Of a DNA stretch of 64,000 bases, positions 29,551 through 44,869 are shown piece after piece. Position 1 is the stretch's first letter. Each line of letters starts with the position of its first letter. The stretch comes from Kutzneria chonburiensis (GTDB taxonomy: Bacteria > Actinomycetota > Actinomycetes > Mycobacteriales > Pseudonocardiaceae). The stretch is taken from positions 4,030,001 through 4,094,000 of the forward strand of contig NZ_CP097263.1 in the NCBI RefSeq assembly GCF_028622115.1. The letters run 5' to 3'. The notes beneath the pieces are model-generated. The model was not told where the DNA came from, made no database searches, and saw only the letters and a list, made by a program, of their open reading frames with translations. Position numbers and translations under genes: made by a program.

Positions 29551-30660
29551 CTACGCCAACCGCTCCAACAGCCACTCATGGAAGATGCCGATGTGGTGTT
29601 CGCTGGGCACGAGGACGCCGCCCTTGGCGTACGCGCGGGAGTCCATCGCCGGCTGACAGCGTTCGCACGCCTCGAAGTCCTGCTCGTTGACGCGGTGGAA
29701 CAGCTCGACCGAACGCGAGACGTCCTTGCCGGACTCGACGACGGAAGGCAGGTAGAGCCAGTCGCACTCGACGACCGTGCGGTCCGCGGCCAGGGGGAAC
29801 ATGCGGTGCAGGATCACGTGGTCGGGCACGAGGTTGATGAAAACCTGGGGCTTGACGGTGATGGCGTAGTAGCGCCGGTCCTGATCGTCGCTGACGGTGG
29901 GGATGCGGTCGAGACCGGCGCTGCCGTCGACGGTGAAGCCCTCGATCTCAGTGCCGAACTCGGCCCCATGACCGACGTAGTACTGGGCGGCGAGGCCCTC
30001 GGTGAACTCGGGCAACACCTCGGTGAGCTCGGGGTGGATGGTGGCGCAGTGGTAGCACTCCATGAAGTTCTCGACGATGAGCTTCCAGTTGGCCTTGACG
30101 TCGTAGACGATGCGCCGGCCGACGGAAAGGTTGGCCACGTCGTAGTGCTCGATGGCCGAAGCGTCGCCGAGGCGCTCGGTGCAGGCCCCGATGACGTCGT
30201 CCTCAAAGGACGGGGGCTTGTCGGCGAGGCACACCCACACGTAGCCGAGCCACTCCCGCACCTGCACGGTGACGAGACCGTACTCGACGCGGTCGATGTC
30301 GGGCATCTTGGTCAGGTTGGGCGCGGCGACGAGCTTGCCGTCCAGGCCATAAGTCCAAGCGTGGTAAGGGCATTGGAAGGCGCGCTTGACCTCGCCCTCG
30401 GAGTCCAGACAGAGCCTGGCTCCGCGATGCCGGCAGATGTTGAGGAAGGCCTTGACCGAGTTGTCGCGGGCCCGCGAGATGAGCACCGACTCCCGTCCGA
30501 TTTGGACGGTGCGGAACTTGCCGGGAGTGGGAATGTCCGCGGACCGGATGGCGCAGAACCACATCGTCTCGAAGATGCGTTCCTGCTCCTGCCGAAAGAT
30601 CTCCGGATCTGTGTAGTACGCGCCCGGCAGGGTCGGGATCAGGCTGGCGGTCACGGACAT
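29551..30660 (-). CDS. gbcA: Rieske non-heme iron oxygenase, glycine betaine demethylase-type
   Basis: A 369-residue oxygenase alpha subunit. Rieske cluster ligands are Cys76, His78, Cys97 and His100 (CRHRGARLC ... CPYHAW). Mononuclear iron ligands fall in the FMECYHCATIHPELTEV region. Within a choline/betaine cluster this fits the GbcA-type enzyme that removes a methyl group from glycine betaine, giving dimethylglycine and formaldehyde. It is the last gene of the leftward bet operon, 8 bases after the dimethylglycine dehydrogenase-like gene. Electrons probably come from the ferredoxin/reductase pair at 37.7-39.2 kb. The ATG at 30660 follows AGAAGGGGA. Stachydrine or carnitine demethylation is a less likely alternative. 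Confidence 0.85.
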   Translation of the reverse strand: MSVTASLIPTLPGAYYTDPEIFRQEQERIFETMWFCAIRSADIPTPGKFRTVQIGRESVLISRARDNSVKAFLNICRHRGARLCLDSEGEVKRAFQCPYHAWTYGLDGKLVAAPNLTKMPDIDRVEYGLVTVQVREWLGYVWVCLADKPPSFEDDVIGACTERLGDASAIEHYDVANLSVGRRIVYDVKANWKLIVENFMECYHCATIHPELTEVLPEFTEGLAAQYYVGHGAEFGTEIEGFTVDGSAGLDRIPTVSDDQDRRYYAITVKPQVFINLVPDHVILHRMFPLAADRTVVECDWLYLPSVVESGKDVSRSVELFHRVNEQDFEACERCQPAMDSRAYAKGGVLVPSEHHIGIFHEWLLERLA

Positions 30661-30668
30661 TCCCCTTC

Positions 30669-34547
<3,879 letters not shown>

Positions 34548-34551
<4 letters not shown>

Positions 34552-36185
34552 GACTGCTCCCGGTGGCGGTAGAACTCCACCTCGGTCGGCGGCAGGGGCG
34601 GCCGGCCGAGGATCAGGTCCGCGGACTTCTCCGCGATCATCATGGTCGGCGCGTAGATGTTGCCGTTGGTGACGTACCGCATCACCGACGCGTCGACGAC
34701 CCGCAGCCCGTCAACTCCGTGCACCCGAAGCGATTCCGGGTCAACGACGGACTGCTCGTCCACCCCCATCCGACACGTGCACGAGGGGTGCAGCGCCGTC
34801 TCGCCGTCCTTGGCCACCCAGGCCAGGATCTCCTCATCGGTCTCGACCGACGGTCCCGGCGAGATCTCGCCGCCGCTGTACTCGTCAAAAGCATGCTGCG
34901 TAAGGATGTTCCGCGCCACCCGGACCGCCTCGACCCACTCGCGGCGATCCTGCTCGGTGGACAGGTAGTTGAAGCGCAGCGCCGGCTTGACCCGCGGGTC
35001 GGTCGACGTGATCTTCACCGAGCCGCGGGCGTCGGAGTACATCGGGCCGACGTGCACCTGGTAGCCGTGGTCGCCGGCCGGCAGCGAACCGTCGTAGCGC
35101 ACGGCGATCGGCAGGAAGTGGAACATCAGGTTGGGGTAGGCCACCTCGTCGTTGCTGCGGACGAAGCCGCCACCCTCGAAGTGGTTGGTGGCGCCAGGAC
35201 CCGTGCGGAACAACCACTTCAGGCCCACGAGAGGCTTGTTGTACCACTTCATGTAGGGCGCCACCGACACCGGTTTGGTGCAGGCGTACTGGATGTACAC
35301 CTCGAGATGGTCCTGGAGGTTCTCCCCCACGCCCGGCAGGTCGTGCACCACGTCGATGCCCAACGCCGCAAGCTCTTTGGCGTTGCCCACGCCGGACAGC
35401 TGGAGCAGCTGCGGGGAGTTGATCGCGCCGCCGGACAGAATCACCTCGCCGGCCCTCACCTGCTTCGTCCGTCCACCTTGGACGTACTCGACGCCGACAG
35501 CCCTGGTGCCCTCGAACAGGATTCGCGTCGTGTAGGCGCGGGTCTTGACTGTCAGATTAGGACGCTTGCGTACCGGGTGTATGTAGGCGCGGGCGGCGCT
35601 GAGCCGACGGCCGCGGTGCAGGTTGCGGTCGAACGGGGCGAAGCCCTCCTGCTGATATCCGTTGACATCTTTGGTCAGCGGATACCCGGCCTCCTGCACC
35701 GCCTTGAAGAACGCCTGGAACAACGGGCTGTCGGCCGGCCCGCGCTCCAGCACCAGCGGGCCGTCGCCGCCGCGATACTCGTCCGCCCCGGCCAGGCAGT
35801 TCTCCATCTTCTTGAAGTACGGCAGGCAGTGGGCGTAGTCCCAGGACTTCATGCCCTCGTCGGCGCCCCACCGCTCGTAGTCCAGCGGGTTGCCGCGCTG
35901 GAAGATCATGCCGTTGATGCTGGACGAGCCGCCGAGCACCTTGCCGCGGGCGTGGTAGATGCGCCGGCCGTTCATCGCCGGCTCCGGCTCGGACTCGTAC
36001 TTCCAGTCGTAGAAACGGTTGCCGATCGGCATGGTCAGGGCCGCCGGCATGTGCACCAGCGGATCCCAGATGTAGTCGGGCCTGCCGGCCTCAAGGACGA
36101 GAACTGAGGTGGCGGGGTCGGCGGACAGGCGGTTGGCCAGGCAGCTGCCGGCGGAGCCCCCGCCGACCACGACGAAGTCGAACAT
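34548..36185 (-). CDS. betA: choline dehydrogenase (GMC oxidoreductase)
   Basis: A 545-residue FAD enzyme of the GMC family that oxidises choline to betaine aldehyde (and often on to betaine). The FAD fold is [23 protein letters not shown] signature 1 is [20 protein letters not shown]; signature 2 is [15 protein letters not shown]. The C-terminal catalytic part reads HPSCTCRMG ... [15 protein letters not shown]. Length and motifs fit BetA well. It follows betB by 6 bases and overlaps the permease start by 4 bases. Other alcohol oxidations by GMC enzymes exist, but the neighbours make choline the clear choice. Confidence 0.93.
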
Positions 36186-36191
36186 CCTCTA

Positions 36192-37655
36192 TCACCCCGG
36201 GAACAGGCCGAGTGGTTTCGGATCGGTGTTGGTGTAGATGTGTTTCGCCTCGCGGTACTCGTCGAGACCGGTGGGTCCGAGCTCGCGGCCGATGCCGGAA
36301 CGCTTGAAGCCGCCCCATTCCGCCTGCGGCAGGTAGGGGTGGTAGTCGTTGATCCAGACCGTGCCGTGCCGCAGGGCGCCGGCCACGCGCGCGGCTCGGC
36401 CGGCGTCCCGCGTCCACACCGCGCCGGCCAGGCCGTAGTCGGTGTCGTTGCCGAGCTCGATGGCTTCTTCCTCGGTGCTGAAACGCTCGGCCGTCAGGAT
36501 GGGGCCGAACGTCTCCTCCCGCACCACGGTCATGTCACGGCGGCAGTCCGCGAACACCGTCGGGCGGTAGAAGAACCCTTGCTGTAGCTCGGGTTCCTCG
36601 GGCCGACGGCCGCCGGCCAGCAGCTTCGCGCCCTCCGCGACGGCGGACGCCACGTAGCGTTCGATCTTGTCACGGTGCTCGGCCGACACCAGCGGGCCGC
36701 TCTGACTGCTGTCGTCGAGGCCGCTGCCGATCCGGATCCGGTCGGCCCTGGCGGCGATCTCGGCCACGAACTCGTCGTAGATGCTGTCCTGCACCAGCAA
36801 TCGGGCCCCGGCCGAGCAGACCTGGCCGGCGTGCAGGAAAACGGCGTTCAAGGCCTGGTCCTTGGCCGTGGTCAGGTCGGCGTCGGCGAACACGATGTTG
36901 GGGTTCTTGCCACCGAGCTCCAGCGCGATCTTCTTGACGTTGCCGGCGGCGGCGCGCATGATCCGCTGCCCGGTGGCCAGGCCGCCGGTGAACGAGATCA
37001 GGTCGACATCGTCGCTTTCGGACAGTGCCGCGCCGACCGTCGCGCCCGCGCCCAGCACCAGGTTGACCACGCCGGCCGGGATGCCGGCCTCCTCGATCAG
37101 CCGGACCAGGGCGATCGTGGTCAGCGGCGTCACCTCGCTCGGTTTGACCACGATGGTGTTGCCGGCGGCCAGCGCCGGCGCGATCTTCCACGACGCCTGG
37201 AGCAGCGGGTAGTTCCACGGCGTGATCAGCGCGCACACGCCGACCGGCTCGTAGACGATGCGGCTCTGCGCGCTCGGGATGCCGGTGTCGACCACCCGGC
37301 CCGGATGCTTGTCGGCCAGGTCGGCGTAGTAGCGGAAGACGCGCACCACGTCGTCCACATCGGCGATGCTCTCGCCGAGCGTCTTGCCGGTGTCCAGGGT
37401 CTCCGTTCTGGCGATCTCGTCCCGGTCCCGCATCAGCAGATCGGCGACGGCGTTGAGCAGCGCGCCGCGCTCGGCCGCCGGCGTCCGGGGCCACGGGCCC
37501 GCATCGAAAGCGGATCTCGCGGCGCTGACCGCCATCAACGCGTCATTCGCGTCAGCCTCGGCGACCGTGGTGAGCACGCTGCCGTCGAACGGGTTGATCA
37601 CCGGTCGGGTGTCGCTCGCACCCGTCCAGCGCCCGCCGATGAACAGTTCCGCCAC
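36192..37655 (-). CDS. betB: betaine aldehyde dehydrogenase
   Basis: An aldehyde dehydrogenase of 487 residues, taking the GTG at 37655 ([12 protein letters not shown]), which has GGGGG six bases upstream. The longer frame to 37697 would start inside the candidate operator. Catalytic Glu is in [18 protein letters not shown] and Cys in [17 protein letters not shown]-binding [20 protein letters not shown] is conserved. It oxidises betaine aldehyde to glycine betaine. It is first in the leftward operon and is preceded by operator site 1 (37676-37711). The gene is intact, unlike the aldehyde dehydrogenase at 21 kb. Confidence 0.93.
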
Positions 37656-37675: not shown

Positions 37676-37711
37676 GTTGCTGATTACGCAACTCCACGCT
37701 GAATTCGCAAC
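37676..37711. promoter_or_regulatory. candidate IclR operator, site 1 (betB operon)
   Basis: GTTGC (37676-37680), 7 bases, GCAAC (37688-37692), 14 bases, GCAAC (37707-37711). The first two elements form an exact inverted repeat. The same spacing recurs at 39223-39258 and 40177-40212, all three in the same orientation although the genes face both ways. It lies 20 bases upstream of the preferred betB start. Confidence 0.7.
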
Positions 37712-37736
37712 AGCATTGACGGTGCCCGGCGGCTCG

Positions 37737-38894
37737 TCAAGGGGCCAGCACCGGCCGCGCCAGCTGCCGCCGCCACCGGGTGAACAGCTTCGGCTGGTTC
37801 ATGCCGAGCACCCCGACCAGCACATCACCACGTTCGTAGACCGCGAGGAAGCTGCGCCGGTCGGTGTCGCCCTCGATCACTCGTACGGTGTCGCCCTCGC
37901 GTCGGTGGCCGGCGAACTGGATCCGCACCCCGTACTGATCCGACCAGAAATAGGGCGCGGCGAGGTGGGGTCGCGGCGACCCCAGCAGCGTCGCCGCCGC
38001 GGTCGTCGGCTGCTCCAGCGCGTTCGTCCAGTGCTCGGCGCGGTGGCGTTCGTGCAGGTGGACGCTGTAGGACGCGGCCACGTCGCCGACCGCGACCACC
38101 TCGGGCAGGTGCGTGGCGCAGGCCGCGTCGGTGACGACCCCGTTGGCCAGCTCCAGCCCCGAGCCGGCCAGCCACTCGATGTTCGGCGCCGCCCCGATGC
38201 CGACCACCACCACCTCGGCCGGGATCTGCCGGCCGTCGGCCAGTTCGACGCTGCGCACCCGGTTGGCGCCGAGGATGCGCTTGACCTGGGCCCCGGTGAT
38301 CAGGCGGACGCCATGGTCGGCGTGCAGGCCGGCGCAGACCGTGCCGATCTCCTTGCCCAGCTGCCGCAGCAGTGGCAGGGGCTCGGCCTCGATGACCGTC
38401 ACATTCGCGCCGAGATAACGGGCAGTCGAGGCCACTTCGGCACCGATGAACCCGGCGCCGACCACCACCAGCTGCACGCCTGGCACCAGCTCGCTGCGCA
38501 GGCGGATGGCGTCGTCCAGCGTGCGCAGGACGTGGACGCCGTTGACGCCCTCGGTCCCCGGCAGCCAGCGGGCGCGGGCGCCGGTCGCGATGACCACGCC
38601 GTCGCAACGCAGCGTCTGGCCGTTCGACAGCTGGAGGGAACGGTCGCGCGGGTGCAGGCTCAGCGCCCTCGTGCCGAGCCGGAAGTCCAGGTCCAGGTCG
38701 TCGTCATCGGGCGTGCGCAGGCCGATGTCCGCGGTCTTGCCGGCCAGGAACTCCTTGGACAGCGGCGGCCGGTCGTACGGCCGGTGCGGCTCGTCGCCCA
38801 CGATGACCAGGCGGCCGTCGAAGCCCTGCTGGCGCAGGGCGCGGGCGGTGGACAGGCCGGCCAGGGAGGCGCCGACCACGGCGGCCGTGCGCAT
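37737..38894 (-). CDS. FAD-dependent ferredoxin reductase
   Basis: A 385-residue NAD(P)H:ferredoxin reductase of the class that serves Rieske oxygenases and P450s. Two dinucleotide folds are visible: AAVVGASLAGLSTARALRQQ near the N-terminus for FAD and VVVGAGFIGAEVASTARYLG for NAD. The FAD-contacting PYDRPPLSKEFLAG and the C-terminal EVVAVGDVAA follow. The ATG at 38894 shares a base with the stop of the Rieske ferredoxin gene, so they are co-translated. Together they probably feed electrons to the betaine demethylase of the adjacent operon; a P450 is another possible client. Confidence 0.88.
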   Translation of the reverse strand: MRTAAVVGASLAGLSTARALRQQGFDGRLVIVGDEPHRPYDRPPLSKEFLAGKTADIGLRTPDDDDLDLDFRLGTRALSLHPRDRSLQLSNGQTLRCDGVVIATGARARWLPGTEGVNGVHVLRTLDDAIRLRSELVPGVQLVVVGAGFIGAEVASTARYLGANVTVIEAEPLPLLRQLGKEIGTVCAGLHADHGVRLITGAQVKRILGANRVRSVELADGRQIPAEVVVVGIGAAPNIEWLAGSGLELANGVVTDAACATHLPEVVAVGDVAASYSVHLHERHRAEHWTNALEQPTTAAATLLGSPRPHLAAPYFWSDQYGVRIQFAGHRREGDTVRVIEGDTDRRSFLAVYERGDVLVGVLGMNQPKLFTRWRRQLARPVLAP

Positions 38895-39211
38895 CAGCAG
38901 GCCACTTCGCTGTAGGCCACCCGGATGACGCCGTCCTCGACCACCACCGGGTAGGTGCGGATCGGCCTCGTCGCCGGCGGGCCGCTGGGTTGGCCGGTGC
39001 GCAGGTCGAAACAGGAGGCGTGCAGCGGGCACTCCACCGTGCAGCCCTCCAGCCAGCCGTCGGCCAGCGAGGCGTCCTGGTGCGTACAGGTGTCGTCGAC
39101 TGCATACAGTTCACCGTCATCCGTATGGAAGACGGCGATGGGCGGATCGACGGTGTCCACTCTGACCGCCTCCCCCGGCGGCAGCTGATCCACTCTGCAC
39201 ACCTCGATCAC
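38894..39211 (-). CDS. Rieske-type [2Fe-2S] ferredoxin
   Basis: A protein of about 105 residues. Cluster ligands are in CTHQDASLADGW (Cys, His) and CPLHASCFDLRTG (Cys, His). This is the small electron carrier of multicomponent Rieske oxygenases. The GTG at 39211 (MIEVCRVDQLPPGEAVRV) gives the usual length. The frame opens to 39253, but that extension covers the candidate operator and a TATACG-like -10. It is first in a two-gene operon with the reductase, and divergent from the IclR regulator. Electron transfer to the betaine demethylase is inferred from the cluster. Confidence 0.88.
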   Translation of the reverse strand: MIEVCRVDQLPPGEAVRVDTVDPPIAVFHTDDGELYAVDDTCTHQDASLADGWLEGCTVECPLHASCFDLRTGQPSGPPATRPIRTYPVVVEDGVIRVAYSEVAC

Positions 39212-39222
39212 TTCGGCCTCCG

Positions 39223-39258
39223 GTTGCGTATAGCACAACTCGTCGTACTGCACGCAAC
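39223..39258. promoter_or_regulatory. candidate IclR operator, site 2 (ferredoxin/iclR divergent region)
   Basis: GTTGC (39223-39227), 7 bases, ACAAC (39235-39239; one mismatch), 14 bases, GCAAC (39254-39258). Same architecture as sites 1 and 3. It lies between the ferredoxin operon and the iclR gene and could control both. Confidence 0.68.
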
Positions 39259-39316
39259 AGAGTGAGCACCGGGCGATGCGCCGTCAAGGCTCCATCCGCT
39301 CGACTACAGTGCGTGC

Positions 39317-40089
39317 ATGGCTTCAAGCGAGGGGTCGGCCGCACTCGTGCAGTCGGTCGACCGCGCGGTGTCCGTCCTGGAATTCCTGGCCCTGCACGGC
39401 GAGATGGGCATTACCGAACTGGCCGCCGAGCTGGGGGTGCACAAGTCCACCGCGTTCCGGCTGGTGTCCGTGCTCGACTCGAGGGGCTGGTCGAGCAGAC
39501 CGGCGACCGCGGCAAGTACCGGCTCGGCTTCGGCATCGTCCGGCTGGCCGGGGCCACCGCCGCGCAGATGGACCTGTCCCGTGAGGCGCGGCCGGTGTGC
39601 GAGCGGCTGGCCGCGCAGGTCGGCGAGACCGTCAACGTCGCCATCCTCGACGGCGGCTACGCCATCAACGTGAGCCAGGTCCGGGGCAGCGCCACCGTCG
39701 CCACCATCAACTGGGTCGGGCAGCGCACTCCCCTGCACGCCACCTCCAGCGGCAAGGTCCTACTGGCCAACCTGCCCGCCACCGAGCAGGAGGAGCTGCT
39801 GGCCCGGCCACTGACCATGTACACGCCGCGCACCATCATCGACGCCGGGCTGCTCCGCGCCGAGCTCGACGCCGCCCTCGCCGCCGGCTGGGCCAGCACC
39901 GCCGACGAGCTCGAGATCGGCCTCAATGCCGTCGCCGTGCCCATCCGCGGCATGGACGGCAACGTCGTCGCCGCCTTGAGCGTCTCCGGGCCTTCTTACC
40001 GGCTCACCACCGACCGCTTCGCCGAGGTCGCCCGCCTGGCCGCCGACGGCGCCAAGGAGATCAGCCACCGCATCGGCCACACCGGCTGA
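39317..40089 (+). pseudogene. IclR-family transcriptional regulator, with one frameshift
   Basis: N-terminal winged helix MGITELAAELGVHKSTAFRL followed, in another frame, by the IclR effector domain (DRGKYRLGFGIVRLAGATAA; WVGQRTPLHATSSGKVLLAN). Adding one G to the run at 39483-39486 converts the junction into the expected SRGLVEQTGDRGKYRLG and gives about 257 aa, normal length. It is likely intact in the organism. The ATG at 39317 lies 7 bases after a TACAGT -10 element (39305-39310), suggesting a leaderless mRNA. It sits at the centre of the choline/sarcosine cluster, and sites with one shared architecture precede all three operons, so it is probably the pathway regulator. Confidence 0.83.
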
Positions 40090-40090
40090 A

Positions 40091-40175
40091 CCCCCGCGAG
40101 TCCCGCTGAGCGTCACACCGAATGCGTGAAACGGATTCACGCATTCGGTGTGACTGTGGACGGGACTCGCCGGGG
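40091..40175. repeat. palindromic repeat family A, copy 2 (double-stem hairpin)
   Basis: An 85-base palindrome beginning one base after the iclR stop. The outer stem is 15 pairs with one mismatch (40091-40105 with 40161-40175). The inner stem is 19 perfect pairs (40112-40130 with 40136-40154) around loop ACGGA. It is the partner of 6169-6254, in opposite orientation. It ends one base before operator site 3, so it separates iclR from the sox promoter and can end iclR transcription. Confidence 0.85.
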
Positions 40176-40176
40176 T

Positions 40177-40212
40177 GTTGTGGAGAGCGCAACAGTGCGC
40201 TTAATCTGCAAC
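40177..40212. promoter_or_regulatory. candidate IclR operator, site 3 (sox operon)
   Basis: GTTGT (40177-40181; one mismatch), 7 bases, GCAAC (40189-40193), 14 bases, GCAAC (40208-40212). Same spacing as sites 1 and 2. It ends 19 bases before the soxB ATG, so binding would overlap the promoter. Confidence 0.7.
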
Positions 40213-40231: not shown

Positions 40232-41437
40232 ATGTCCGAGCACCCCGACCGGCTGTGGCGGAATCCCGAACCCAGGTCCGGTTACGACGTCGTCATCGTC
40301 GGCGGCGGCGGGCACGGCCTGGCCACGGCGTACTACCTGGCCGCCAACCACGGCATCCGGAACGTGGCGGTGCTGGAAAAAGGGTGGCTGGCCGGCGGGA
40401 ACATGGCCCGGAACACGACGATCATCCGCTCGAACTACCTGTGGGACGAGAGCGCGGCGATCTATGAACACGCCCTCAAGCTGTGGGAAGGGCTGTCGAG
40501 CGAACTGGACTACGACATCCTGTTCAGCCAACGCGGCGTGCTGAACCTGGCCCACACGCTGCAAGACGTGCGGGAAGGCACGCGGCGGGTGAACGCCAAC
40601 CGGCTCAACGGGGTGGACGCGGAATGGCTGGACCCGGACCAGGTCCGCGAGTTCTGCCCGATCGTGAACACAGCGCAGGATGTGCGGTATCCGGTGCTGG
40701 GGGCGACGTTGCAGCCGAGGGCGGGGATCGCCAAGCATGATCACGTGGCCTGGGCGTTCGCGCGCAAGGCGGACGAGCTCGGCGTCGACCTGATCCAGGG
40801 CTGCGAGGTCACGGGATTTCTCAAGGACGGCAACAAGGTCATCGGCGTGGACACGAACCTGGGGCCGATCTACGCGGGGCGGGTCGGACTGGCGGCGGCG
40901 GGGCACAGCAGTGTGCTGGCGAGTCTGGCCGGCTTCCGGCTGCCGGTGCAGAGCCATCCATTGCAGGCCCTGGTGTCGGAGCTGCTGGAACCGGTCCATC
41001 CCTGCGTGGTGATGTCCAACCACGTGCACGTCTACGTCAGCCAGGCGCACAAGGGCGAACTGGTGATGGGCGCGGGCATCGACCCGTACAACTCCTATAC
41101 GCAGCGCGGTTCCGTGCACGTGATCGAGCAGCAGATGGCGGCGGCGCTGGAGCTGTTCCCGCTGTTCGCCCGGGCCCACGTGCTGCGCACCTGGGGCGGC
41201 ATCGTGGATGTCACGCCGGACGCGTCGCCGATCATCGGGCCGACCCCGGTGGACGAGCTTTTCGTCAACTGTGGTTGGGGCACAGGCGGTTTCAAGGCGA
41301 CGCCGGCCTCGGGCTGGACGTACGCGCACACCCTGGCCACCGGCAAGGCGCACGCTCTGAACGAACCGTTCGCCCTCGAACGATTCACCACCGGCGCGCT
41401 GATCGACGAGCACGGCGCGGCGGCCGTCGCACACTAG
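40232..41437 (+). CDS. soxB: sarcosine oxidase beta subunit
   Basis: A 401-residue flavoprotein subunit of heterotetrameric sarcosine oxidase, which converts sarcosine plus tetrahydrofolate to glycine and methylene-tetrahydrofolate with release of hydrogen peroxide. The FAD fold is [20 protein letters not shown]. The histidine in [12 protein letters not shown] corresponds to the covalent FMN site. The C-terminal [20 protein letters not shown] and [15 protein letters not shown] motifs are typical. The ATG at 40232 is preferred, with GGAGGTGGG just before it; GTG 40220 is the alternative. First of four sox genes. Confidence 0.95.
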
Positions 41438-41449
41438 AGGGAGGTACCG

Positions 41450-41692
41450 ATGTTGCTCATCCCGTGCCCCTGGTGCGGCGACCGCGACGAGACGGAGTTC
41501 CACTACGGCGGCCAGGCCGGCGTGTCGTATCCGGCGCGACCGGCCGATCTGTCCGATGAGGACTGGGGCGAATACCTGTTCGTACGGGACAATCCCAAGG
41601 GCCCCTTGGCCGAACGCTGGTCGCACTCGGCCGGGTGCCGCCGCTGGTTCAGCATCACGCGCAACACGGCGACGAACGAGATCGTGCGATGA
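41450..41692 (+). CDS. soxD: sarcosine oxidase delta subunit
   Basis: An 80-residue zinc-binding subunit of heterotetrameric sarcosine oxidase. Cys6, Cys9, His18 and Cys63 (CPWCG ... FHYGG ... AGCRRWF) are the expected zinc ligands. It is needed for assembly, not chemistry. It lies 12 bases after soxB with a GGGAGG site, and its TGA overlaps the soxA ATG (ATGA). Confidence 0.94.
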   Translation: MLLIPCPWCGDRDETEFHYGGQAGVSYPARPADLSDEDWGEYLFVRDNPKGPLAERWSHSAGCRRWFSITRNTATNEIVR

Positions 41693-44397
41693 GACTCCCC
41701 GAGGGTGGTCGCATCGACCGCACGAAACCGCTGCGCTTCACCGTGGACGGCATCGAGTACACGGGCTGCGCCGGCGACACGCTGGCCTCGGCGATGATCG
41801 CCAACGGGCTGCTGGAGGTCGCGCCGAGCGCGTACCTCGGCCGGCCGCGCGGGATCTTCGCCGCCGGCGTGGACGAGCCGAATGCCCTGGTGCAGCTGGA
41901 TGATCCGATGCAGCTGGCGACGACCACGGAGCTGGTGGACGGCCTCGAAGCGACTCTGCTGTCAGGCAAGGGAAAGCTGACCGGCGAGGCCGACGAAGCC
42001 CGCTACGACAAGCGGAACGTGCACTGTGACGTGCTGGTGGTCGGCGGCGGCCCGGCCGGGGTCGCGGCGGCGCTGGCCGCCGGCCGGACCGGTGCCCGCG
42101 TGATCCTCGCCGACGAGCAGCGGGAACTGGGCGGCGGCCTGCTGACGGAGAACCGGCTGCTGGACTGGCTGGCCGACGCCGTCGAGGAACTGGACGCCCT
42201 GCCCGAGACCCGCATTCTCACGGGCACCACGGCGTTCGGCTACTACGACCAGAACTTCGTTGCCCTGGCGGAGAAACACCGCCTCTGGCACGTCCGGGCC
42301 AAGCGGGTGGTGCTGGCCACGGGCGCCCACGAACGGCCACTGGTGTTCGTGGACAACGATCTACCGGGCATCATGCTGTCCTCGGCGGTTCGCCAGTACG
42401 TCAACCGGTACGCGGCCCTGCCGGGCGAGAACATCGTGGTGGCCACGACGAACGACGCCGCCTACGGCACGGCGTTCGACCTGGCGACGCGAATATCGAC
42501 TATTGTAGACAGTCGACCGGAGCCGCCGGCGGGGCTGGTGCAGCAGGCCCGAGAACTGGGCATCGAGGTGCTCGCCGGGGCGCAGGTCCAGCAGGCGCTG
42601 GGCACGCGGCGAATCGGCGGAGTCCGGGTCGGCGACCGGACGATCGCGTGCGATCTGCTGGCGGTGTCGGGCGGCTGGAACCCGGCCGTGCACCTGTTCT
42701 CCCAGTCCCAGGGCCGGACGCGGTACGACGAGCGGGTCGCAGCGTTCGTGCCGGACACATCCGTTCAGGCGCAGCACATCGTGGGTGCCGCGAATGCCGT
42801 CTACGACCTCGCGGGTTGCCTGCGGGAGGGCTTCGACGCCGGTCTGGACGCTGCCCGACTGACCGGCTTCGACGGCGCACAACCCCAAGCTCCCTACACG
42901 GCAACGGAAACCGTCGCACCGCCGGCTCCGGTGTGGTTCGTCGACGGGCCCGAGGACCGACAGTTCGTTGACCTGCAACGGGATGCGACCGTGGCCGACG
43001 TACGACGGGCGACCGGTGCGGGCATGCGATCGGTGGAGCACGTCAAGCGGTACACCACCATCGGCACCGCGCACGACCAGGGCAAGACCTCCGGCTTCGC
43101 GGCAATAGGCGTCATCGCCCAACTACTCGGGGCCGACGGTCCACAAGGGACGACCACGTACCGCCCGCCTTACACCCCGGTGTCGTTCGCACTGCTGGCC
43201 GGCCGGGATCGGGGCGAGCTGCACGATCCCGTGCGCATGACGCCGATGCACGAGTGGCATGTCCGCAACGGCGCCGTGTTCGAGAACGTCGGCCAGTGGA
43301 AGCGGCCCTGGTACTACCCGCTGCCGGGCGAGGACATGAAGACGGCCGTGCTGCGCGAGTGCCGGGCCGCCCGCACCAGCGTGGCGGTGATGGACGCGTC
43401 CACCCTCGGCAAGATCGACATCCAGGGGCCCGACGCCGGCGAGTTCCTCAACCGCATGTACACCAACGCGTTCGCCAAGCTCAAGGTCGGCCACTGCCGC
43501 TACGGCCTGCTGTGCAAGGCCGACGGCATGGTGTTCGACGACGGCGTGGTCATGCGCGTCGCCGAGAACCGTTTCCTCGCAACGACAACGACCGGCAACG
43601 CGGCCGCGGTGCTGGACTGGTTCGAGGAGTGGGCACAGACGGAGTGGCCGGACCTCAAGGTGTGGTTCACCTCCGTCACCGAGCAGTGGGCGACCATCGC
43701 AGTGGTCGGTCCGCAGGCCCGCACGGTGCTCAGCATCGTCGCGCCGGACGTGGACTGCTCGGCCGAGTCGTTCGAGTTCATGACCTTCCGCGACGTCGCG
43801 CTGGCCGACGGCACGCCGGCGCGGATCGCCCGGGTGTCGTTCTCCGGCGAGCTGGCGTTCGAGATCAACGTGGCCGGCCGGCACGGCGCCGAGGTCTGGA
43901 AGGCCGTGATGGCAACAGGTCTGCCGACTCCGTACGGCACCGAGACCATGCACGTGCTGCGGGCCGAGAAGGGCTACGTGATCGTCGGCCAGGACACCGA
44001 CGGCACCGTGACACCGCAGGACCTCGGCATGGAGTGGATCGTCTCGCCGCGCAAGGACTTCGTCGGCAAACGGTCGTACCAGCGGCCCGACGCCGCCCGA
44101 CCGGACCGCAAGCAGCTCGTCGGCTTGCTGCCGGTCGACCCCGACGACCTGCTGCCCGAGGGCGCGCAGCTGATCACCCCGGACACACCGCTGACGCCGC
44201 CGGTGCCGATGCTCGGGCACGTGACGTCGAGCTACCACAGCGCCGCGCTGGAACGGACCTTCGCGCTGGCGTTGGTGAAGGGTGGCCGGCAGCTGATCGG
44301 GCGGACGGTCCTGGCGCCGCTGCGGGACCGGACGATCGCGGCCACGGTCACCGAGCCGATCTTCTACGACCCGGAAGGGACCCGGCGGGATGGCTGA
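41689..44397 (+). CDS. soxA: sarcosine oxidase alpha subunit
   Basis: A 902-residue subunit. Order of parts: an N-terminal ferredoxin-like fold (FTVDGIEYTGCAGDTLASAM), a Rossmann NAD/FAD domain (DVLVVGGGPAGVAAALAAGR), and a C-terminal GcvT-like folate domain (from about residue 520, MHEWHVRNGAVFENVGQWKR; ending in the LAPLRDRTI region). The folate domain accepts the methyl group as methylene-tetrahydrofolate. The ATG at 41689 overlaps soxD by four bases; the 3' end overlaps soxG by 8 bases. The tight coupling fits equal subunit production. Confidence 0.95.
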   Translation: MRLPEGGRIDRTKPLRFTVDGIEYTGCAGDTLASAMIANGLLEVAPSAYLGRPRGIFAAGVDEPNALVQLDDPMQLATTTELVDGLEATLLSGKGKLTGEADEARYDKRNVHCDVLVVGGGPAGVAAALAAGRTGARVILADEQRELGGGLLTENRLLDWLADAVEELDALPETRILTGTTAFGYYDQNFVALAEKHRLWHVRAKRVVLATGAHERPLVFVDNDLPGIMLSSAVRQYVNRYAALPGENIVVATTNDAAYGTAFDLATRISTIVDSRPEPPAGLVQQARELGIEVLAGAQVQQALGTRRIGGVRVGDRTIACDLLAVSGGWNPAVHLFSQSQGRTRYDERVAAFVPDTSVQAQHIVGAANAVYDLAGCLREGFDAGLDAARLTGFDGAQPQAPYTATETVAPPAPVWFVDGPEDRQFVDLQRDATVADVRRATGAGMRSVEHVKRYTTIGTAHDQGKTSGFAAIGVIAQLLGADGPQGTTTYRPPYTPVSFALLAGRDRGELHDPVRMTPMHEWHVRNGAVFENVGQWKRPWYYPLPGEDMKTAVLRECRAARTSVAVMDASTLGKIDIQGPDAGEFLNRMYTNAFAKLKVGHCRYGLLCKADGMVFDDGVVMRVAENRFLATTTTGNAAAVLDWFEEWAQTEWPDLKVWFTSVTEQWATIAVVGPQARTVLSIVAPDVDCSAESFEFMTFRDVALADGTPARIARVSFSGELAFEINVAGRHGAEVWKAVMATGLPTPYGTETMHVLRAEKGYVIVGQDTDGTVTPQDLGMEWIVSPRKDFVGKRSYQRPDAARPDRKQLVGLLPVDPDDLLPEGAQLITPDTPLTPPVPMLGHVTSSYHSAALERTFALALVKGGRQLIGRTVLAPLRDRTIAATVTEPIFYDPEGTRRDG

Positions 44398-44869
44398 GCT
44401 GCGCGAGATCACCCTGACCCACCAGGTCGACCTGCGGGTCGACCCCGTCGACCCGGCGGCCACCCGCATCGGCGACCTGCTCGGCACGCCGCTGCCGGTC
44501 GTGCCGAACACCGGGTCCGAGGCTGTGCTCTGGCTCGGGCCGGACCAGTGGCTGGTGTTCGGCGCGTCCGAGGCCGAGCTGCGGGCCGCGCTGGGCGACA
44601 CCGCCGGCTCGGTCGTGGACGTCTCGGCCAACCGGACCGTCTACGAGCTGTCCGGGCCCGACGCACGGGAGGTGCTGGAGCAGGGCTGCGCCATCGACCT
44701 GCACCCCCGCGCGTTCGGGCCGGGCCGGTGCGCGCAGACCATGCTGGCCCGCGCCAACGTGGTGCTGCACCAGGTCGACGACACGCCGACGTATCGCCTC
44801 CTGGTGCGGCCCTCGTTCGCCGGCTATCTCACATCGTGGCTTCGGGATGCACTATCGGCTGCGGGCTGA
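44390..44869 (+). CDS. soxG: sarcosine oxidase gamma subunit
   Basis: A 159-residue subunit with the GcvT-related fold: LWLGPDQWLVFGASEAELRA, then GSVVDVSANRTVYELSGPDA and the LHPRAFGPGRCAQTMLARAN stretch. It is last of soxBDAG and overlaps soxA by 8 bases (ATGGCTGA). Its last 41 bases overlap the convergent membrane protein gene, an unusually long tail-to-tail overlap. With this gene the choline-to-glycine route is complete. Confidence 0.92.
   Translation: MAELREITLTHQVDLRVDPVDPAATRIGDLLGTPLPVVPNTGSEAVLWLGPDQWLVFGASEAELRAALGDTAGSVVDVSANRTVYELSGPDAREVLEQGCAIDLHPRAFGPGRCAQTMLARANVVLHQVDDTPTYRLLVRPSFAGYLTSWLRDALSAAG

Follow-up and report, generated by a model that had tools for sequence, protein, structure and literature searches.

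A predicted IclR-family regulon for choline-to-glycine breakdown in Kutzneria chonburiensis, with tandem-dyad operators conserved among actinomycetes

Three copies of a spaced sequence pattern, found within 2.5 kb of the Kutzneria chonburiensis genome, are very probably (we put it at about 0.85) operators of one IclR-family regulator that is encoded beside them and is predicted to control the choline-to-glycine pathway as a repressor, acting through tandem dyads. The copies lie in a stretch of 64,000 nucleotides (nt) of contig NZ_CP097263.1 (assembly GCF_028622115.1, forward-strand positions 4,030,001 to 4,094,000), which we call the window and whose coordinates are used throughout. The pathway genes in the window together make up what we take to be the choline-to-glycine route, which would lead from choline through glycine betaine, dimethylglycine and sarcosine to glycine. 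The sites, their spacing and conservation, the promoter-like elements beside them and the link to the IclR orthologue were computed directly. A first-pass annotation of the window had described the sites as GTTGC-N7-GCAAC-N14-GCAAC. The three copies indeed stand where it had placed them, on the plus strand, with 0, 1 and 1 mismatches, and their neighbours (betB, the Rieske ferredoxin gene and iclR, and soxB) are those that it had named. The expectation values (E) below come from the R1 profile, which was built from 47 sites, 46 of them from other genera and one (L039) from a second locus of the congener G006.

37676-37711, minus strand: putative operator 1, tandem dyads before betB (betB-betA-permease-DMGDH-gbcA, minus strand); 0 mismatches; R1 E=0.0146 in the genome
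39223-39258, no strand assigned: putative operator 2, tandem dyads between the Rieske ferredoxin gene (minus strand) and iclR (plus strand); 1 mismatch; nearly symmetric
40177-40212, plus strand: putative operator 3, tandem dyads before soxBDAG; 1 mismatch; R1 E=0.354 in the genome, 0.002 in the window

The genome (10.41 Mb, a single contig) was searched with this pattern of 15 fixed bases and, as a control, with the same pattern read backwards. With at most one mismatch, six matches are present, three of which are the window sites, against two for the control. When two mismatches are allowed, the excess over the backwards control disappears (18 pattern matches against 27), so it is their clustering and conservation that speak for the sites, not genome counts. 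Given a background of about three matches per genome, the chance of three more matches in 2.5 kb was estimated by hand at about 1e-10. The R1 profile places the sites at 39223, 37676 and 40178 first, second and fourth in the genome, operator 2 ranking at the top with E=0.0013 on the plus strand and 0.042 on the minus strand. The proposal that the pattern is not scattered at random was therefore not refuted. It had also been pointed out that all three sites read in the same direction. This is true of the plus strand, but it is a weak feature, since the minus strand is matched as well by the 39223 site (two mismatches) and the 37676 site (three mismatches).

The geometry of the sites became clearer from relatives. 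A GTT-N11-AAC dyad is located at 37676-37692, 39223-39239 and 40177-40193; in relatives, a second dyad occurs within a centre distance of 18-22 nt (19 bp), and in the window this second dyad is imperfect. Among the 80 loci described below, 19 bp separates 58 of the 80 distinct dyad pairs lying no more than 80 nt apart, and the next commonest distance accounts for 5 pairs; each pair is counted once here, while an alternative tally of 64/95 counts some pairs twice. When only exact dyads are used (90 anchors, both strands counted), nine of 22 further boxes lie at 19. The fourth box, which the search pattern leaves unconstrained, matches GTTGC in at least three of five bases at 37 of 69 sites, against 9.4 obtained by shuffling, and at 28 of the 47 training sites, against 6.2 expected. 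The congener locus L110 was excluded from the 69-site count and from the TTGAC flank count given below. In K. chonburiensis itself, the fourth box is GTCGT at 39242-39246 in operator 2 (3/5) and is poor in the other two operators (2/5). Position 4 is G in 42/47 and 51/69 sites, both sets having been selected with a pattern that requires G there. Because the fourth box is enriched and the dyads keep their 19-bp spacing, each operator is, as judged from sequence comparison, made of four alternating half-sites, the outer two being the best kept. The shared direction of the sites reflects which inner box decayed. Thus, the asymmetric third half-site of the first-pass annotation is not supported by the comparison: the operator is probably a pair of tandem, head-to-tail 17-bp dyads of the GTTGC-N7-GCAAC type with centres 19 bp apart, and the reading as three half-sites is probably wrong.

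Conservation was assessed in several samples. For model building, 40 regions were picked by eye among the pattern matches listed (stronger-looking or clustered ones); three loci without a nearby pathway gene (L047, L056, L078) and five congener cluster loci were dropped beforehand. The IclR alignment, A2, contains the iclR genes of 19 motif-bearing loci among the chosen regions. Since the training sites had been chosen by eye and context, 80 loci fetched by protein similarity were used as the test, namely the best 80 of 510 by similarity to the IclR alignment alone. At a score of at least 18, at least one site is carried by 76 of these 80 loci, and by none with the reversed matrix. In total, 221 sites were found against 0 for the reversed matrix, which reaches 3 at score 14; a few of the 221 overlap one another at a distance of 19 bp (four such pairs). 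No exact training site occurs in the 80 loci, and exclusion of L110, which overlaps a fetched region, leaves 75/79. The site-bearing loci include those of Streptomyces, Geodermatophilus, Blastococcus, Modestobacter, Lentzea, Amycolatopsis, Actinoplanes, Rhodococcus and Frankia. A site lies no more than 260 nt upstream of iclR in 68/79 loci and of the Rieske ferredoxin gene in 52/57, gene starts in these upstream counts being approximate.

Closer to the source organism, the three-site cluster is present in five of the six congeners searched (G004 is without it), and each of the five congener regions fetched, L059-L063, has the sites at the corresponding positions: ahead of betB, between the ferredoxin gene and iclR, and ahead of soxB. 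The presence of the sites before orthologous operons is therefore not refuted in relatives. In 60 family genomes, which include the source genome, an orthologue was defined as an IclR match with E<=1e-50, and the motif scan used strict filters with 115 candidates scored per genome. Of the 42 genomes that have the IclR orthologue, 29 show the motif at E<=0.01, and of the 18 that lack it none does (p=2e-7); when the training genomes are excluded, the counts are 12/25 and 0/18 (p=3e-4). The motif thus tracks the IclR orthologue and the pathway genes across many actinomycetes, which bears out the regulon and the assignment to IclR that had been proposed.

Promoter-like elements adjoin the operators:

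37712-37740, minus strand: putative betB promoter; -35 TTGACG at 37735-37740, 17-bp spacer, -10-like AATGCT at 37712-37717 touching operator 1
39259-39287, minus strand: putative ferredoxin-operon promoter; -35 TTGACG at 39282-39287, 17-bp spacer, -10-like CACTCT at 39259-39264 touching operator 2
40178-40207, plus strand: possible soxB promoter inside operator 3; weak -35 TTGTGG at 40178-40183, N18, -10 TAATCT at 40202-40207

Of 195 sites in the loci L111-L189 that score at least 22, 138 have a TTGAC at a distance of 22-27 nt on the outer side of the operator, and only 2 such matches occur in 772 control flanks taken 400 nt away. Counted over whole flanks, TTGAC occurs 153 times in 390 operator flanks and 32 times in the 772 control flanks. 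The six bases that touch the operator read NANNNT, with A in 82 and T in 87 of 88 distinct flanks, a set preselected by the presence of TTGAC at a distance of 23 or 24 nt. The usual form of the promoter is TTGAC, a 17-18 bp spacer and NANNNT. The TAATCT within the soxB operator is kept in the six Kutzneria sequences compared, and a promoter inside this operator could explain its conserved GTTGT deviation. From its sequence, iclR seems to have a -10 element of its own, TACAGT, six bases before the ATG, which would place operator 2 upstream of the iclR promoter.

We infer binding, tetramer formation, repression, a ligand and the operon structure. Each 36-bp operator would take two dimers, that is, a tetramer, along its two dyads, one inner half-site having presumably decayed in Kutzneria. 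The betB and ferredoxin operators begin at the base that follows the -10-like element and would cover about -6 to +30, and the bound protein would block the start of transcription. Repression by covering the start site is proposed because the promoter usually abuts the operator. The repressor would then leave the DNA in response to one of the pathway compounds, be it betaine, dimethylglycine, sarcosine or choline.

Beyond the window, it is likely that one IclR regulator governs choline-to-glycine breakdown across several Actinomycetota orders (together with betaine uptake and one-carbon enzymes in some lineages). It would do so through a composite of TTGAC, 17-18 bp and a -10 element fused to the tandem-dyad operator, the promoter and operator having evolved as a unit. 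Such an arrangement would provide a testable map of regulator, operator and promoter for the way in which many soil actinomycetes break down choline, betaine and sarcosine. Further targets could be predicted from the composite promoter-operator, which might also be of use as a sensor of betaine or sarcosine.

In relatives, the motif also adjoins genes for a BCCT transporter, zinc alcohol dehydrogenase-like genes and a pterin-binding protein (L113 3803; L121 8944; L169 1898, 2043; L162 12736, 15927). Among 14 open reading frames scanned beside otherwise unassigned sites, eight match no Pfam family; the six that do match one include a DMGDH-like frame. Taken from gene neighbourhoods, this suggests that uptake and one-carbon disposal belong to the regulon in relatives.

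The presumed regulator is encoded between operators 2 and 3:

39317-40089, plus strand: iclR, predicted regulator; HTH_IclR in piece 1 and IclR_C in piece 2, both over cut-off; frameshift near 39480 in the helix-turn-helix/wing region

The gene is a single open frame in all five congener regions fetched. Both pieces share 97% identity with the query, the L061 protein, and are the only close match to it in the genome; because both remain so similar, an assembly error and a very recent loss are both possible. The genome has 24 other IclR-like places (E<=1e-5), each at most 38% identical. Two close copies of this IclR were observed in 10 of the 60 family genomes (G009, G013, G024, G032, G033, G041, G047, G054, G058, G101), possibly marking two parallel regulons.

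Several other explanations of the sites were considered. Under the simplest of them, the matches arise by chance or belong to a dispersed repeat, and the lack of any excess over the backwards control at two mismatches speaks for it. Yet half of the genome matches with at most one mismatch fall within 2.5 kb, and the cross-genus conservation, together with the site counts in the 80 loci, refutes it, so we give it next to no weight. It is very improbable that a different regulator, encoded elsewhere, binds the sites. Binding by the neighbouring IclR is a prediction, and the 24 other IclR-like matches offer candidates; these proteins are dissimilar, however, while the presence of the motif follows this particular IclR orthologue and a site usually precedes iclR itself. 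An operator with three true half-sites, of the PcaU/PobR kind, would consist of a dyad and a direct repeat, would be bound asymmetrically and would give the fourth position no role. Three-box IclR sites have been described (PMC8222616), and two of the three window sites have a poor fourth box. Nevertheless, this box is well above chance in other genera, the 39223 site reads nearly equally on both strands, and the L077 site has GTTGT at the fourth box and matches in both directions. A PcaU-type operator of three boxes only was therefore set aside, given the enriched fourth box and the 19-bp dyad spacing in relatives, and we consider it unlikely.

Finally, the sites may be real operators through which IclR activates, or acts in both ways, instead of repressing only. 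The IclR family includes activators and dual regulators (PMC8222616), and the probable promoter of iclR is located downstream of operator 2; however, most sites examined are just downstream of TTGAC and a -10-like element, where repressors act, which makes this reading fairly unlikely.

Repression of the pathway by the neighbouring IclR remains our preferred reading, and a number of observations weigh against it. In this assembly the iclR frame is broken, so the protein may not be produced by this strain. The soxB site has the lowest score of the three window operators, lacks TTGAC at the usual position and is outranked by a chance-like match elsewhere in the genome, at 2920528 (E=0.117, covering model positions 4-35). 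No pathway gene is evident around that match (L079), the sole one of the further genome places listed to be inspected, as judged by eye from its list of open reading frames. Operator 2 is upstream of the likely iclR promoter, so iclR may or may not be autoregulated. Across the 80 loci, no site was found in four (L146, L170, L172, L178), three of which also have no pathway gene, L172 having only a SoxA-like match. Conversely, six loci without a recognised pathway gene bear a site (L122, L130, L149, L155, L182, L184). Sites within 260 nt upstream are rarer for DMGDH (20/39), BetB (15/38), BetA (15/33), GbcA (10/51), the reductase (6/56) and SoxB (3/11), and were found for none of 23 permease genes; many of the genes without a nearby site may lie inside operons. 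Among the family genomes with the orthologue, 13 of 42 are without the motif at E<=0.01; at E<=0.1, it appears in 32 of these 42 and also in one of the 18 genomes without the orthologue. The enzyme assignments add to these points, as BetB and GbcA score under their NCBIfam cut-offs and the ferredoxin passes the model of another pathway, so that the roles of these three proteins follow from similarity and context. The genes concerned are as follows:

29551-30660, minus strand: GbcA-like Rieske oxygenase; best NCBIfam model GbcA, 222.8 bits, far under the cut-off of 670
30669-33037, minus strand: DMGDH-like flavin adenine dinucleotide (FAD)/folate dehydrogenase; DAO, FAO_M, GCV_T; frameshift near 31030 (tblastn with congener proteins)
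33037-34551, minus strand: APC-type permease; AA_permease_2
34548-36185, minus strand: betA, choline dehydrogenase; TIGR01810 850.5 bits, over cut-off
36192-37655, minus strand: betB, betaine-aldehyde dehydrogenase; Aldedh; TIGR01804 635.8 bits, slightly under the cut-off of 668.6
37737-38894, minus strand: ferredoxin reductase; Pyr_redox_2, Reductase_C
38895-39211, minus strand: Rieske ferredoxin; PF00355; passes NF007422 (phenylpropionate-dioxygenase ferredoxin model)
40232-41437, plus strand: soxB, sarcosine oxidase beta; TIGR01373 636.8 bits, over cut-off
41450-44869, plus strand: soxD, soxA and soxG (soxD and soxG presumed from gene order); soxA TIGR01372 1180 bits, over cut-off; congener copies found

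The betB, betA, permease, DMGDH-like and GbcA-like genes lie close together and probably form one operon. No site was found before DMGDH in the window, and one is present there in K. viridogrisea (L062); the window DMGDH is probably read from the betB promoter. Context points to the ferredoxin as a partner of GbcA.

Between iclR and soxB, a very strong hairpin was observed at 40090-40175 (-66.4 kcal/mol, z -10.9). Its 19-base arm recurs at 28 genome places with at most one mismatch, and the control at none; facing pairs make up three of these places, and the others are single at that level. Because of this recurrence, the hairpin is regarded as a dispersed repeat.

TtgV of Pseudomonas putida, an efflux regulator, acts as a tetramer on a two-dyad operator. 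By sequence it is an IclR-family relative of the window protein, and a distant one (91 bits against the A2 profile; structures 2xrn and 2xro); its structure with DNA is cited in PMC8222616. The best-scoring named IclR model is BhcR (NF045644), at 181 bits; as this misses the cut-off of 350, the window IclR is not a member.

According to the main text of Suvorova and Gelfand 2021 (PMC8222616), GTT-11-AAC dyads occur in the IclR family; of 181 orthologous groups in all, 94 have tandem sites at a spacing of 18-22 nt and 32 have three-box sites. Neither "sarcosine" nor "betaine" appears in that main text, which does not extend to the supplementary tables, so the present group could be among the 181. 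Literature searches, mostly at the level of titles and abstracts, found no published description of this choline/betaine/sarcosine regulon or its regulator. The operator model had been called undescribed; as far as these searches reach, this holds for the regulon, and it does not hold for the geometry, which that main text reports for many IclR groups.

The operators described here share with the tandem IclR sites of that survey the 17-bp GTT...AAC dyad, the occurrence of two dyads (here at 19 bp) and a position near gene starts. They differ from its GTTYC consensus in that position 4 is mostly G, in site sets chosen with a pattern requiring it, and they serve a different gene set, that of choline, betaine and sarcosine. 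With the PcaU, PobR and HmgR operators as described there, they have in common a dyad and an extra half-site oriented as one of its arms, but here a weaker fourth half-site completes a second dyad. As read from these sequence comparisons, the system is a new, widely conserved regulon with an already known kind of operator.

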